Assembly (NCBI RefSeq): GCF_014284305.1
Contig: NZ_JACOFW010000002.1
Location: forward strand, 1-64,000
DNA: 64,000 bases
Source: Affinundibacterium seohonense
GTDB taxonomy: Bacteria > Pseudomonadota > Gammaproteobacteria > Burkholderiales > Burkholderiaceae_D
Direction: 5' to 3'
The translations under genes were made by a program, and so were the position numbers. Below the pieces are notes generated by a model. The model was not told the origin of the DNA. It did no database searches and was given only the letters and a program-made list of their open reading frames with translations. Below are positions 40,717 to 50,081 of this stretch, one piece after another (positions within the stretch are counted from its first letter, which is position 1; the number at the start of each line of letters is the position of its first letter).

Positions 40717-43269
<2,553 letters not shown>

Positions 43270-44164: not shown

Positions 44165-44260
44165 GATCAGATCATTACGACATTGATGGGCGACGATGTG
44201 GAACCACGTCGGGCGTTTATTGAGTCTAATGCTTTGCGGGCTGGAAATATTGACGTTTGA
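44165..44260 (+). pseudogene. Second copy of the gyrB 3' end (32 codons)
   Basis: 90 of 96 bases match gyrB 43174-43269, including the stop codon. Five of the six changes are silent and one changes F to I ([10 protein letters not shown]). No upstream gyrB part is present, so this is a fragment. It is followed by its own terminator. Confidence 0.92.
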
Positions 44261-44530: not shown

Positions 44531-44860
44531 TTGGAAATTCTCTTCAAGAACAAAAAATTACGTGACATTTGCGAAAAGCAAGCACACGCAAAAAAGCTTT
44601 TGGGCGATATCGGTGCAAGAAAGCTATTTTCTCGACTGTCTGATTTAGCGGCTGTTAACCGAGTGACAGATCTCATCGCTGGAAACCCTCATCCGTTGAA
44701 GGGCGATAGGTTAGGTCAATTTGCATTAGATCTTGCTGGCGGATGGCGCTTGGTGTTTGAGTCTGCAAATGATCCTATTCCACGTAATCTGGACGCATCA
44801 ATTGATTGGTCCCGTGTGACCATCGTAAGTATTGAATTTATTGGTGATTATCATGACTAA
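44531..44860 (+). CDS. higB: HigB/RelE-type toxin
   Basis: 109 residues, ribosome-dependent mRNA interferase family. The sequence LARDICEKQAHAKK-like start, GARKLFSRLSDLAAV, then HPLKGDRLGQFALDLAGGWRLVFE is the plasmid maintenance/HigB pattern. Starts with TTG at 44531 behind CGGAGA (spacing eight). Its stop overlaps the antitoxin start (ATGACTAA). Slightly longer than typical HigB (about 92-100). Confidence 0.88.
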   Translation: MEILFKNKKLRDICEKQAHAKKLLGDIGARKLFSRLSDLAAVNRVTDLIAGNPHPLKGDRLGQFALDLAGGWRLVFESANDPIPRNLDASIDWSRVTIVSIEFIGDYHD

Positions 44861-45821
44861 TCTCACTTTACAAAAAGCAAGCGATACCCAATCGTTCGCA
44901 CCCGACTGGGTATCGCCACCTGGCGATACCATTTTGGATCTTTTGGAAGAACGTGATTGGACGCAAAACCAATTAGCAGATCGACTAGGCTATTCCACCA
45001 AGCACGTCAGCCAACTTATTAACGGTAAAGTTCCACTCAGCGAAGATGCTGCCATACGTTTACAAAATGTATTTGGTGCCTCCGCTGGTTTTTGGCTCAC
45101 GCGCGAGGCGCAATACCGTCAACGTATCGCCTCGATTGAGGCCGCAGAGCAAAATGCGAATATGGTGTCTTGGCTCGATCAGTTTCCAATTAAAGCCTTG
45201 ATGGATGCAGGCGTGTTAGACAAATGCAGAGTCGATGCCAAATCTAAACCGCAACTGGTTGGCAAGCTACTGGCATTTTTTGGAGTGGCGACACCGAATC
45301 AATGGCAAAGCCATTACTGCGACATGCAATTAGCGTTTCGTCGTAGTCGTGAAGAGCAGTCGAATATTGGTGCGATTTCAGCGTGGTTAAGGCTAGGTGA
45401 GCAAGCTGCAGAAAAACTCTTGTTAGATAAGTCGGCAAATCCCAAATACGATGAAGCACGCCTTCGCGCAAATCTGCCACACATTCGCGCGTTGACGACC
45501 TTAACACCAACAGAGTTTCTTCCGCAATTAAAGCAGCTTCTACAAGAAGCAGGAGTCGCACTCGTTCTTGTACCTGCGATTACCGGCACCCATGTCTCAG
45601 GCGTTGCGCGTTGGCTCAACCCACATCGCCCATTAATTCAGCTGTCGTTATACGGTAAGAGCAATGATAAATTCTGGTTCACGCTTTGCCACGAAATCGC
45701 ACACATTCTGTTGCACAGTAAGGAAAAGAAATCCGTGTTTCTTGATGACACAGGACAGGCTGGTTCAAATAGCAAACAAGAGCAAGAAGCCAATGCTTGG
45801 GCACGGGATTTTTTGATCTAA
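44853..45821 (+). CDS. higA: HigA antitoxin fused to ImmA/IrrE-type peptidase domain
   Basis: 322 residues. HTH (about 25-80: GDTILDLLEERDWTQNQLADRLGYSTKHVSQLINGK) followed by a long linker and a C-terminal ImmA/IrrE-like domain with HEIAH (280-284), the zinc metallopeptidase signature. The fusion neutralises HigB-type toxins and may be turned over by its own domain. The C-terminus stops at EANAWARDFLI, just before where the family usually continues for 40-50 residues, so it looks truncated. Start chosen at 44853 (GGTGA upstream). Confidence 0.85.
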   Translation: MTNLTLQKASDTQSFAPDWVSPPGDTILDLLEERDWTQNQLADRLGYSTKHVSQLINGKVPLSEDAAIRLQNVFGASAGFWLTREAQYRQRIASIEAAEQNANMVSWLDQFPIKALMDAGVLDKCRVDAKSKPQLVGKLLAFFGVATPNQWQSHYCDMQLAFRRSREEQSNIGAISAWLRLGEQAAEKLLLDKSANPKYDEARLRANLPHIRALTTLTPTEFLPQLKQLLQEAGVALVLVPAITGTHVSGVARWLNPHRPLIQLSLYGKSNDKFWFTLCHEIAHILLHSKEKKSVFLDDTGQAGSNSKQEQEANAWARDFLI

Positions 45822-46015: not shown

Positions 46016-47383
46016 TTAAGCTGATTCCCCTTCAAATCGAAATACATTCTCAATTAAAAACCGCTTCGCTTCACTAATCACATCCGCACGCAACGGAATA
46101 CCAAGGATTTTTAGCCTAATTTCGGTTTGATTGATCCGATTCAAATACACAGTCTCGGTCACTTCTAATTGGTTTGATGGATAACAGAGAATCGCTTGTT
46201 TCTCCGAGCAAGTATCAAACGATGCATAGCCCAAGACTTGGTGGAGATCGTGGCGATAATCTGTTTTCAATTGTTCGCTGCCACTGGTTCTATTCAATAA
46301 GTGTGATTTGTATTTGGCGTCTATATACAGCAAGCTGTCGTTTTTCTTAAAGATGCCGTCTGGCTCCAGATGGTGTAACTCCCAAGTGTAATGTCGTTGA
46401 GAGTCGCGATTGATTCTGAAATTAGCAAAAAAACTTCCCCCGATTTGCTTTGCCACCGCAATGAATAGGTGTTGCACAAATTTTTCAAAAACATCAGAAA
46501 AATCCGCCCGCCAAGCCGTTCCTATATTTGCTTGATAACTTAAAACGCGATTCGCTTGTTGTTTGCAGCCATTAACGATGGGCAAATCAGATGGCCTTTC
46601 GATCAAACGATCTGTTTTTATTGGGCGATGAAAGTATAATTTTTCTTCCAGTACTTCAAGTTTTCTCTTGATGCGTAACTTCAGGCTTACTGGTGTGCGT
46701 GGTGAATTGATTTCATTTTTACAGAGGCCAAATACATAAGCGAGTTGCGCATATTCTGCGTGAAACACTGTCATTACGTTGGTGGTAACTGGATACCGCT
46801 GTTGATTCTCCACCTTGAATTGATTGGCGATGTATTTATTCCAGTTTACTTGTCCAACCGGTGCTTGCGCGATCTTTTCAATTCGCGAAAATTTTTGCCA
46901 ATGCGTTTTTGAGAGTTCGGTAAGATAATCGACAAATTTGACCGCTTCTAAATATAGCGGTGGTCGAAAGTGGTAGCCAGATTTAAGTGGCAGGCTTTCT
47001 ATAAATTGCGCTTCTATCTGATTGTCTAGTAAATTGAGAATCTCAACATAATCGGCGTAGCGATCACGTGCGATAAATCTCGGCACCACAACGAAGTCGC
47101 CAATTTGTTTGCCCGTATCTGGTGCGCGTAGCGGAACAGTCCCGACAAATTCGGAGGTTCTAAAACAAATCGATACATCTTGGTCGATGCCGACGATAGA
47201 TGGCGTTATGCCGAGGAATTCGAAGGATTTGGCGTTGTAATTGACGAATTTTTGCAGCGCTTGAGCGAGATAAAATTTATCAACCTTTTTAAAGATTTTT
47301 TTCTGTAATTCCAATCCACTAAACAATTTTGATTGCTCAGTTAAGCATGGAAGTTCACAGAAAATGTCGTTAAACTTTTTCAT
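46016..47383 (-). CDS. mcrC: McrC-type nuclease subunit of a type IV restriction system
   Basis: 455 residues. McrC pairs with the McrB AAA+ ring and cuts methylated DNA. The PD-(D/E)xK nuclease core is visible: EPDGIF near residue 340 and LLYIDAKYK near 352-360. The N-terminal 200 residues are the McrB-bridging part. It is co-transcribed with mcrB by an ATGA overlap. No further gene in the operon downstream. Confidence 0.88.
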   Translation of the reverse strand: MKKFNDIFCELPCLTEQSKLFSGLELQKKIFKKVDKFYLAQALQKFVNYNAKSFEFLGITPSIVGIDQDVSICFRTSEFVGTVPLRAPDTGKQIGDFVVVPRFIARDRYADYVEILNLLDNQIEAQFIESLPLKSGYHFRPPLYLEAVKFVDYLTELSKTHWQKFSRIEKIAQAPVGQVNWNKYIANQFKVENQQRYPVTTNVMTVFHAEYAQLAYVFGLCKNEINSPRTPVSLKLRIKRKLEVLEEKLYFHRPIKTDRLIERPSDLPIVNGCKQQANRVLSYQANIGTAWRADFSDVFEKFVQHLFIAVAKQIGGSFFANFRINRDSQRHYTWELHHLEPDGIFKKNDSLLYIDAKYKSHLLNRTSGSEQLKTDYRHDLHQVLGYASFDTCSEKQAILCYPSNQLEVTETVYLNRINQTEIRLKILGIPLRADVISEAKRFLIENVFRFEGESA

Positions 47384-48747
47384 TCAAATAATGCCTGACC
47401 TATTTCGCCAACGAAGTAACTGTTCAGTTCTTCCTTGGCATTACTGAGTAAACCTTCTTGCAGATATTCACGCATGAGTGGGAATAACTCATAACGAATT
47501 CGATTCTTCATCTCATCTTCATTTTGTGCGAGAAAATAGCCTTGCCCTGGCTGCAATGCGAGTTCAGTTGAGCTAGCATACCAATTGAATATTTCTTCAA
47601 ACTTAGAAAAATGTTTTCCGTGGAATTCACTAGAATTTATCGCTTGCGGTTTGAGGTCATACCAAGCAAATCGTCTACGCAATGCGAAATCGACCACCGC
47701 CAAACTTCGATCGGCCGTGTTCATCGTAGCTATCACGTAAAGATTGCTTGGCATCTTAGAAATCGCGAGTTCCGGTGTAAGCACGATCTCGACGTTGGCA
47801 AAATCTTGCTTGTATTCGAATAAGTAAAACAATGGTCCTAAAACGTTCGATAAATTGGCGCGATTAATCTCGTCGATGATGAGTATGGTCTTCTCATTTG
47901 GATTCATTTGTGCGTGCTTAATTGCTTTCAGTAACACGCCTTCTTCACCAGAATAGGTCAAAGACGCTGCTTCCAAATTTGGACGTATGCCATAAATAAA
48001 ATCAGAGTAAGACGTTTCTGCATGAAATTGTGTGAAGAAGGTTTTAGCTGTCCATTCCTCCGCAATACTTTTTGCGAGCCGTGTTTTGCCGGTACCCGGC
48101 GCGCCTTGCAGTACGACGTATTTTCGTTCCATGAGAAGGCGAGACACTCCTGCCTTATCGTCACTAGCCTTGTCGCTCGTGACTTCTTTGATCGCTTTGG
48201 TTATTGCTTTGCGCTGGGACTCATTCGTCGGCCAATTTCGTAATCTTGCATAACCAGCCAAGATAGCAGAAATTCGTCTTTTACCATGTTCAGAATTTGG
48301 GTCTTTGACGATTTGTGCGACCGGCAAAACATTGCGATATTTGTCTAAAGTTTTTTTGATATGCGTGAGTTCTTCCTGATCCAAGAAACTCCTCGGCAAG
48401 GACGATTCAATATCCGAAAAATCTGATTTGCAGATCCCATCTGCATCGATCAATTTTGAAAAAAAACGACGCGGCCCGGGATAAGTTGCTAGCTCATAAT
48501 CATTTTTAAAACCACTTGAACCTACACCTAGACAAATTAGCCAAGCTTTGTTTTGATCATTAGGGAAAATTGTGAATGAAAAATCATGAAAAGGTCCTGA
48601 ATTTTCCTCAGACGGATGAATGAACCCAAAATAGGCACCATTGTCGTTTAATGCATCAGCCTTGGTGTTATTTCGCTCGATGTAAAATCCCTTAGCGCCG
48701 AATTTTTCCGCTTCTTCTTTGACAAATGTTCTGATCGTTTCAATCAT
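47380..48747 (-). CDS. mcrB: McrB-type AAA+ GTPase/ATPase of a type IV restriction system
   Basis: 455 residues. N-terminal about 200 residues (AFGFIHPSEENSGPFHDFS region) form the probable DNA-recognition domain; then an AAA+ module with Walker A GAPGTGKT (215-222), Walker B LIIDEIN (289-295), the McrB signature MNTADRS (342-348) and RRRFAW (357-362). McrB proteins use GTP to drive McrC translocation. TAGGAG ribosome-binding site nine bases upstream of ATG. Downstream of a C-type regulator. Confidence 0.9.
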   Translation of the reverse strand: MIETIRTFVKEEAEKFGAKGFYIERNNTKADALNDNGAYFGFIHPSEENSGPFHDFSFTIFPNDQNKAWLICLGVGSSGFKNDYELATYPGPRRFFSKLIDADGICKSDFSDIESSLPRSFLDQEELTHIKKTLDKYRNVLPVAQIVKDPNSEHGKRRISAILAGYARLRNWPTNESQRKAITKAIKEVTSDKASDDKAGVSRLLMERKYVVLQGAPGTGKTRLAKSIAEEWTAKTFFTQFHAETSYSDFIYGIRPNLEAASLTYSGEEGVLLKAIKHAQMNPNEKTILIIDEINRANLSNVLGPLFYLFEYKQDFANVEIVLTPELAISKMPSNLYVIATMNTADRSLAVVDFALRRRFAWYDLKPQAINSSEFHGKHFSKFEEIFNWYASSTELALQPGQGYFLAQNEDEMKNRIRYELFPLMREYLQEGLLSNAKEELNSYFVGEIGQALFE

Positions 48748-48842
48748 GCGGCTAATCTCCTAATTCTCATTGGATGTTGCTTGTTCTGATGTGTTCTCGC
48801 GGCAATGCGTGATTTATTGAAATGCGATAAACAGAAATTTTC

Positions 48843-49061
48843 TTACTGTTTGGGAGAGAATAATTCAGCTGACTCGACGTCTAAGGCTTTAGCAATTTTG
48901 AAGATATTGGCTAAGCTAACATTACGGACACCACGCTCGATGCCGCTGATATAGGTGCGATCGAGTTCGGCAATCAGACCAAGTTGTTCTTGGCTCAGCC
49001 CTTTTTCTTGTCGCAAATGTTTAAGATGCAGCCCAAAAGCCACTAGATCTTGATTGATCAT
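48843..49061 (-). CDS. C-protein-type XRE regulator of the mcrBC operon
   Basis: 72 residues. Entire protein is an XRE helix-turn-helix (LKHLRQEKGLSQEQLGLIAELDRTYISGIERGVRNVSLANIFKIAKALDV), the size and pattern of restriction-modification controller (C) proteins. I start at 49061, behind GGTGA; an ATG further upstream (49097) would add a 12-residue extension overlapping the promoter. A double C-box lies 45-82 bases upstream, strongly suggesting autoregulation. mcrB begins 96 bases downstream. Confidence 0.88.
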   Translation of the reverse strand: MINQDLVAFGLHLKHLRQEKGLSQEQLGLIAELDRTYISGIERGVRNVSLANIFKIAKALDVESAELFSPKQ

Positions 49062-49106
49062 AATCACCAGTACCGTTTCAATATATCGACGGGGCAATCA
49101 TGCTGC

Positions 49107-49143
49107 TATGTGACTTATGAGTCTACGGACTATGAGTCACATA
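49107..49143 (-). promoter_or_regulatory. Double C-box operator upstream of the controller gene
   Basis: Two tandem palindromes, GACTTATGAGTC (49112-49123) and GACTATGAGTC (49129-49139), framed by TATGTGACT (49107-49115) and AGTCACATA (49135-49143). This is the GACT...AGTC form and spacing of C-boxes known from controller-protein operators of restriction-modification systems. An ATATAT -10-like hexamer lies on the minus strand near 49081-49086, so the boxes overlap or lie just above the -35 position. Confidence 0.85.
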
Positions 49144-49206: not shown

Positions 49207-49638
49207 TCATTCGCAGGCAAGGAGGTGCTTAATTTGACGTGCTAGACCGATTTCTGTGAGTGACGATACGTAATGCTTGATTCTGAATTCAACACGCACA
49301 TCATTATGCTGCGCCTCTGTCACAAGATAGCAAACGCGGTTTACGTAATGAATACCGGGGACTATCCATTGATCATTTGCTTCTCCATCGAGAACGGTCC
49401 AAATGAATTCGCTACACAGACTACAAACTAGTTCGTAGTTTGCATCGAAAGTTTCTAAATCAAATCCGCCCCAAATATCATAACTTGCTTTCGGATGGTG
49501 GTAGGGTTTGAAGTGTTTGTAGAAAGTATCTTCATGCAGTGTCAGAGTGGACAACTCATGTTGGTCTTTCCGCGAGCTTTGAAATGAATGCGGTGATGTC
49601 TCTGCTATGCGAATCGGTGGGTACGCTTTCAACTTCAT
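49207..49638 (-). CDS. Hypothetical protein, coupled to upstream gene
   Basis: Up to 143 residues; real start uncertain. The first 26 residues of the longest form overlap the preceding gene. A TTG at about 49552, right after the preceding gene's stop (ACATGAGTTG), could be the true start, giving about 115 residues. Contains WGGFDLETFDANYELVCSLCSEFIW. Soluble; no family recognised. Next to the mcrBC operon, so a defence or immunity function is possible but unshown. Confidence 0.5.
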   Translation of the reverse strand: MKLKAYPPIRIAETSPHSFQSSRKDQHELSTLTLHEDTFYKHFKPYHHPKASYDIWGGFDLETFDANYELVCSLCSEFIWTVLDGEANDQWIVPGIHYVNRVCYLVTEAQHNDVRVEFRIKHYVSSLTEIGLARQIKHLLACE

Positions 49639-49870
49639 TTATGCATTCAAACTCATGCCAATCGTGGTCCAGTTCCTCGTCATAGTCATCAAAGAAAAGC
49701 GAAGGAACACCCGCATTGACCGCATCAAAAAACATCTCATCAATGAGTCTCTGTTTGATCATTTCATTGAGCTTTTCTAGCGAAGTTTGATTTTTATTCG
49801 CAAAGACTACGGTGCCGAAATTTTTGAAATTTCCAGCATCACGATATAAGTAAGAAAATTCGATGTTCAT
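49556..49870 (-). CDS. Hypothetical acidic protein
   Basis: About 104 residues from ATG at 49870; an open frame extends to 49972. The centre (LIDEMFFDAVNAGVPSLFFDDYDEELDHDWHEFECINEVESVP) is very acidic, like immunity or antitoxin-type proteins. The N-terminus (MNIEFSYLYRDAGNFKNFGTVVFAN) is strand-rich. No family named. Its stop codon overlaps the next gene's possible start, so the two form a small operon at the edge of the defence island. Confidence 0.55.
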   Translation of the reverse strand: MNIEFSYLYRDAGNFKNFGTVVFANKNQTSLEKLNEMIKQRLIDEMFFDAVNAGVPSLFFDDYDEELDHDWHEFECINEVESVPTDSHSRDITAFISKLAERPT

Positions 49871-50081
49871 CGCAAAGCCCCGATTTTGAGGCGTCAAACC
49901 AGAATGAATAATTATTCTACCCTGGTAATATTTGCAACGGTAGTCATCGTGTTTCTTTACTACCCACCCCATCTCTCACACAAGTTGACGTTATCCAATG
50001 AAAGGCCTCAGCATCAATTAATTTGTTATCGATGCACCCTTTCACTCCATATTTAAAAAACCCATGCATAAACTATGTGGC

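Follow-up and report, generated by a model that had tools for sequence, protein, structure and literature searches.

A three-gene cassette behind a tandem C-box operator

In the window, by which we mean the whole 64,000-nucleotide stretch of DNA analysed here, the ORF list and the sequence revealed a three-gene defence cassette on the minus strand, consisting of C, mcrB and mcrC with an operator 5' of C (Table 1). The first-pass annotation had proposed this gene order together with two tandem GACT-AGTC boxes, and both the reading frames and the operator (49108-49142) were found where it had placed them. mcrB and mcrC share 4 bp where they meet, and about 95 bp separate C from mcrB. The GC content of 46016-49143 is 41.6%, versus 51.3% for gyrB and 46.9% for the 64-kb window, a low value of the kind often found in acquired DNA.

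Table 1. Coordinates of the cassette genes, operator and predicted promoter in the window
Feature	Position	Strand	Description and evidence
C, controller protein, helix-turn-helix	48843..49061	minus	72 aa from ATG; ORF, Pfam, PADLOC and structure-profile match
mcrB-like	47380..48747	minus	455 aa; AAA+ motor domain with Walker A and MNTADRS; no Pfam match for the N-terminal domain
mcrC-like nuclease subunit	46016..47383	minus	455 aa; PD...DAKYK; relatives in Pfam McrBC
Operator ATGTGACTCATAGTCCGTAGACTCATAAGTCACAT	49108..49142	minus	35 bp, two GACT-AGTC boxes; pattern search and alignment with congeners
Left box GACTCATAGTC	49128-49138	minus	part of operator
Right box GACTCATAAGTC	49112-49123	minus	part of operator
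Predicted C promoter	49097..49125	minus	-35-like TAGACT (49120-49125) in right box; -10-like CATGAT (49097-49102); 17-bp spacer

By sequence, the regulator and its operator belong to a known class

The regulator matched Pfam HTH_3 (5.5e-16) and the PADLOC Control_protein model (1.4e-24), and comparison of a three-sequence C profile with solved structures placed it closest to C.AhdI (2.2e-24), followed by C.BclI (5.6e-20) and the 3clc set (2.5e-13), which includes C.Esp1396I entries (PMC3758141, PMC4041747). In C.Esp1396I, R35, T36 and R46 make base contacts, the T36A variant shows no measurable binding and the R46A variant binds about 30-fold more weakly (PMC4041747). In an alignment that allows for a three-residue chain offset, the cassette regulator keeps R35, T36, Y37 and R46 of C.Esp1396I, and S52, which contacts the backbone there, aligns with N52. 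Across ten aligned C-type proteins, R35 and T36 do not vary.

The C.PvuII-like class is characterized by a pair of GACT-tat-AGTC sites separated by a conserved GT (PMC4824078). An Esp1396I oligonucleotide has been published that starts ATGTGACTTATAGTC, and the TATA of the right site is assigned to the -35 box (PMC3758141). The cassette likewise has two GACT-AGTC sites with a GT spacer upstream of C and the -35 region in the right site; the spacer between its boxes is CGTA and the outer arms are ATGTGACT and AGTCACAT. An Esp1396I-type consensus had no match in the window; the right box is offset by one base. Searching for GACTNNNAGTC by itself was uninformative: at one mismatch it was not enriched in the window (15 seen versus 14.5 expected), although the left box is the single exact occurrence in the 64 kb.

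Both hexamers of the predicted C promoter are weak, each having four of six consensus bases (8/12 together). A promoter scan with a threshold of 9/12 listed no minus-strand site from the operator to mcrB, and at this threshold the weak C promoter also went unlisted; the sole minus-strand site of the scan lies within mcrB. The lack of a promoter-like site between operator and mcrB is expected if mcrB depends on C, and the 95-bp gap could hold a promoter of a type outside the scan. As a sequence prediction, the regulator can be assigned to a known class of C proteins and its operator is a canonical tandem C-box, in which the right box holds a -35-like hexamer and 17 bp separate this from a -10-like one, in agreement with the earlier reading of the boxes as those of a restriction-modification (R-M) controller. 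C regulation of the cassette is strongly predicted.

A McrB-like motor protein and a divergent McrC-like partner

Residues 203-368 of McrB matched E. coli McrB (6hz4; 3.7e-34), and both the Walker A motif and MNTADRS are present, the latter an instance of MNxxDR, which we take to be the McrB signature. McrB also matched the NCBIfam McrB model (1.1e-33), but at 116.7 bits versus a curated cut-off of 637. The protein is predicted to have an AAA+ GTPase core and to use GTP. Residues 1-196, the N-terminal domain, matched no Pfam family, and the structure model of McrB was poor (mean pLDDT 42.3). Full-length relatives, about 30% identical, were found in G902 (locus L119), in G1046 (locus L120) and on a viral contig (L139). 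As a single-protein query, McrB had no match in viral contigs; the N-terminal domain as query found only the window's copy among 398 genomes, and a six-row alignment of this domain found only L139 in viral contigs. The N-terminal domain of L139 in turn had no plasmid match. At L120:3175-10075 an OLD-like AAA/TOPRIM gene and a gene for a UvrD helicase come after the full-length McrBC relative, an arrangement reminiscent of Gabija.

McrC is more loosely tied to its family, reaching 7.9e-05 and 21.9 bits against the NCBIfam McrC model (cut-off 338), with no Pfam match and no solved-structure relative at E 1. Its relatives in L119 and L120 fall in Pfam McrBC, and PD...DAKYK, which has the form of a PD-(D/E)xK site, is invariant in five McrC sequences. 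With the motor core of McrB, these features bear out the first-pass identification of McrB and McrC as a sequence prediction, and Type IV activity is moderately predicted. Several McrBC homologues of other organisms failed to kill methylated E. coli (PMC2614495).

The cassette is conserved in two congeners and the pairing is rare in the genomes sampled

The whole cassette is present in three of the 43 genomes of the genus, namely the window's (G000), G014 (McrB 90% identical) and G007 (McrB 82%); a fourth McrB match, in G037, covers part of the motor domain only. The operator and the -10 CATGAT are kept in G014 and G007, and the upstream flanks diverge and do not align. By our reading of the gene names, the cassette of G014 lies downstream of gyrB, as in the window, and that of G007 between aldo/keto-reductase-like and ZIP-transporter-like ORFs, so that C-mcrB-mcrC with the same operator recurs as a unit in two chromosomal contexts.

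An all-frame scan that detected all nine of its positive-control loci, seven of them outside the profile, found no C-like frame in 20 other McrB regions from 300 genomes of the order; these held 21 of the 23 McrB matches besides the window's, with the second G1015 copy and G1052 left out. The same scan found none at seven further short McrB loci, two of which are the same G037 gene. Among 49 viral loci, 46 of them with a McrB frame, it gave two weak C-like frames, one at L186 (1.3e-06), which has no McrB frame, and one at L156 (8e-05). Around C relatives from 369 genomes of the class, MNxxDR, searched as a motif only, occurred within 1.5 kb at none of 29 loci. The pairing of C with McrB is therefore rare in this sample. 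That C control of McrBC is unusual, as had been suspected, is upheld by the 0/20 count and by a 2025 review, whose excerpts on C proteins mention Type II systems and a single locus of Type I (PMC12707154). A literature search that included this review and excerpts of PMC3695507, PMC3874152, PMC3874153, PMC4081073 and PMC12255303 did not bring up a C-McrBC pairing, although we do not claim that none is in print.

C-boxes in other genomes precede C genes with varied partners

The tandem pattern GACTN{0,1}ATAGTCNGTN{1,2}GACT had five matches among 398 genomes of the phylum, the window included. Because a reversed control pattern matched six of the 398 genomes, there is no excess by number, and the evidence lies in position: all five matches sit 29-58 bp upstream of a C-type gene, in the window, G783, G516, G632 and G071. 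In G783 a 184-aa ORF and then a C5-methyltransferase come after C, and this C-R-M operon has a 19-bp operator core and the -10 in common with the window. In G516 the genes after C are a 257-aa ORF and a C5-methyltransferase in convergent orientation; in G632 C precedes a Schlafen group 3 helicase protein, and in G071 it has no recognised partner. The three cassettes, like G783, G516 and G632, have TAGAC(T/C) in the right box and, separated from it by exactly 17 bp, one of the hexamers CATGAT, GATTAT and GATGAT (4/6); G307 fits best at 16 bp and the geometry is poor in G071, G199 and G408.

In viral contigs the operator core GACTNATAGTCCGTAGAC had three matches, and in all of them a C gene lies 13 bp downstream. 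At two of these loci a 390-aa ORF follows C and a C5-methyltransferase converges on it; at the third the sequence ends within the 390-aa ORF. The sequence GTGACTCATAGTCCGTAGACC, present in G014 and G007, is found again in three prophage-like contigs. At L188:5988-8390, representing the C-controlled R-M operons on prophage-like contigs, the 390-aa ORF weakly matches the phosphorothioated-DNA restriction model NF045808 (4e-15, below cut-off).

Two other genomes (L080:5239-7521 and L084:5287-7538) have a gene for a Schlafen group 3 helicase (Pfam PF09848; PADLOC PDC-S41, E <1e-270) downstream of a C-box and a C gene, and no recognised methyltransferase was found among the ORFs listed at either locus. 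The C gene before the Schlafen helicase in G307 is interrupted by a stop. As judged from these arrangements, the C-Schlafen-helicase pair is a second predicted effector type under C.

Methyltransferases in genomes that carry the cassette

Four methyltransferase families, PF00145 (C5), PF01555, PF02384 and PF02086, were searched genome-wide in the three carriers, G000, G014 and G007. PF00145 had no match in any of them, and a control for this search matched in 10 of 14 genomes. Among the other genomes of the genus, 24 of 40 have PF00145, a contrast with the carriers (0/3) that is a hint at P = 0.08, one carrier, G007, being 65% complete. PF01555 exceeded the cut-off once in G000, between hisD-like and hisC-like ORFs, and twice each in G014 and G007, with one strong frame per carrier. 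PF02384 matched in all three, in each case with a 783-787-residue frame, and PF02086 among the carriers only in G007. Carrier cells thus have predicted adenine methyltransferases and none of the C5 family PF00145. In G000 and G007 the contig with the cassette had no match to any of the four families, and the nearest in G014 lies about 150 kb away. At L119, L120 and L139, the nearest relatives, which share the McrB N-terminal domain, the surrounding ORFs listed contain no methyltransferase motif. The cassette was not assigned to the Type II R-M systems, the four families having no match near it where a cognate methyltransferase would be expected, nor to the LlaJI type, which has two adjacent 5mC methyltransferases.

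Relation to known systems

The cassette resembles the C.AhdI, C.Esp1396I and C.PvuII circuits in its C-family protein, in the tandem GACT-AGTC boxes with GT spacer upstream of C, in the -35 region within the right box and in the restriction gene downstream of C. Those circuits, however, control a Type II endonuclease that has a cognate methyltransferase, whereas the cassette holds McrBC with no methyltransferase match nearby. With the Type IV McrBC of E. coli it shares the AAA+ motor core, the mcrB-mcrC overlap, PD...DAK and the lack of an adjacent methyltransferase match, but it differs in an unrelated-looking McrB N-terminal domain, a very divergent McrC, the C gene and the C-boxes. LlaJI of Lactococcus also uses a McrBC-like pair as its restriction part, but does so with the two 5mC methyltransferases and, in the excerpts of its description, with no C gene reported (PMC1459862). 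HsdC of the Mycoplasma gallisepticum Type I R-M system is, like the cassette's regulator, a C-family protein at a non-Type II locus, but one that binds direct repeats, (GTGTTAN5)2, rather than GACT-AGTC boxes (PMC5282649).

The combination of a C circuit with McrBC is new and conserved, while the parts themselves are known. In the usual account of C proteins, the protective methyltransferase acts before the endonuclease appears. A conserved C circuit on McrBC without a neighbouring methyltransferase must therefore have another use. Candidates are limiting the dose of a dangerous nuclease, switching at a threshold and cross-talk with other C-controlled systems. The cassette is small, and its operator closely matches that of a structurally solved C-protein family.

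A proposed switch and its alternatives

We propose that the cassette is probably an autoregulated McrBC-type restriction system, Type IV-like, under a C switch of the PvuII/AhdI class. In Type II circuits, low C activates and high C represses (PMC12707154), and by analogy we infer the same for the cassette. The weak promoter would at the start yield low basal C; a C dimer would fill the left box first and aid RNA polymerase at the -35 in the right box, whereupon C, mcrB and mcrC would rise together, until at higher C a second dimer on the right box would cover the -35 and shut the promoter. The outcome would be either a fixed amount of a presumed NTP-driven nuclease or an off/on threshold for it, in which case the N-terminal domain of McrB would read the DNA, McrB would move along it and McrC would cut. 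Because no methyltransferase lies beside the cassette, and its relatives also lack one by motif, the target is most likely modified foreign DNA, as for Type IV enzymes. With no methyltransferase to wait for, the switch most likely serves to limit a dangerous, potentially lethal nuclease and to gate when it appears once the cassette has moved into a new cell. Cells whose chromosome becomes methylated are killed by E. coli McrBC (PMC2614495).

The operators held in common with C-R-M(C5) systems, together with the incompatibility groups formed by C proteins, by which a cell refuses R-M systems of the same group (PMC3874152), suggest a different and more tentative role for the cassette as a trap for incoming R-M systems. 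An incoming C-controlled system would supply both C, turning mcrBC on, and the methyltransferase, creating the presumed substrate, and resident C may trigger the incoming endonuclease prematurely. The G783 operon with the window's operator core and -10 fits such a role, as do the prophage-like contigs with GTGACTCATAGTCCGTAGACC, two of which carry C, the 390-aa ORF and a C5-methyltransferase; E. coli McrBC, moreover, keeps a methyltransferase gene from becoming established, cleaving the chromosome once it is methylated (PMC2614495), and the carriers, unlike 24 of the 40 other genomes of the genus, had no C5-methyltransferase match. However, that contrast with the genus is weak, one carrier being incomplete, and the common boxes may reflect no more than shared descent of C genes. 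That the cassette may react to, or sabotage, incoming C-R-M systems is speculative, and it is a doubtful generalization that C-boxes are a shared signal turned against mobile R-M systems, with McrBC having taken over the invaders' C switch and the C-Schlafen-helicase pair as a second effector. C-box searches could, we suggest, find methylase-free defence genes.

It is unlikely that C only limits its own operon and never activates it. In the absence of a methyltransferase a delay has no evident purpose and dose limitation would be enough, and C-type proteins can repress, as at the Type I hsd locus (PMC12707154). Weak hexamers (8/12) with the -35 in the right box are, however, the geometry of an activated C promoter (PMC3758141), and under simple repression the left box would have no use.

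Quite unlikely is a LlaJI-like arrangement, in which the cassette would encode a Type II enzyme of McrBC shape that is blocked by modification, its methyltransferase being unlinked or lost and C keeping its classical delay. LlaJI is an example of an R-M system that works with McrBC-like subunits (PMC1459862), and the PF02384 matches and the strong PF01555 frame in each carrier make an unlinked N6 partner possible. The methyltransferases adjacent to LlaJI are, however, 5mC enzymes, the C5 family is absent from 3/3 carriers, and neither the vicinity of the cassette nor the ORFs listed at L119, L120 and L139 offered a candidate. That C and mcrBC are chance neighbours, with mcrBC under its own promoter, is highly improbable and was rejected, since despite the 95 bp between C and mcrB the three genes and their operator form a conserved unit in both chromosomal contexts and the gap has no minus-strand promoter-like site.

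Sequences flanking the cassette

Two overlapping ORFs upstream of the operator (49207-49972) had no match in Pfam, PADLOC or NCBIfam. On the other side, in 44531-45821, mcrC is adjoined by a HigB-like ORF (E 0.037, below cut-off) and by an HTH and Peptidase_M78 protein that matches PADLOC PD-Lambda-2_B (4e-34). In G014 (L030:3336-10062) another ORF lies between gyrB and the cassette, and the 3' side of gyrB may be an insertion hot spot. In the window the 3' end of gyrB is duplicated at 43222-43253 and 44213-44244, with 32 bases exact and a 29-residue peptide repeated; the two copies flank an NTase_sub_bind and nucleotidyltransferase gene pair, which looks like an insertion with target duplication.
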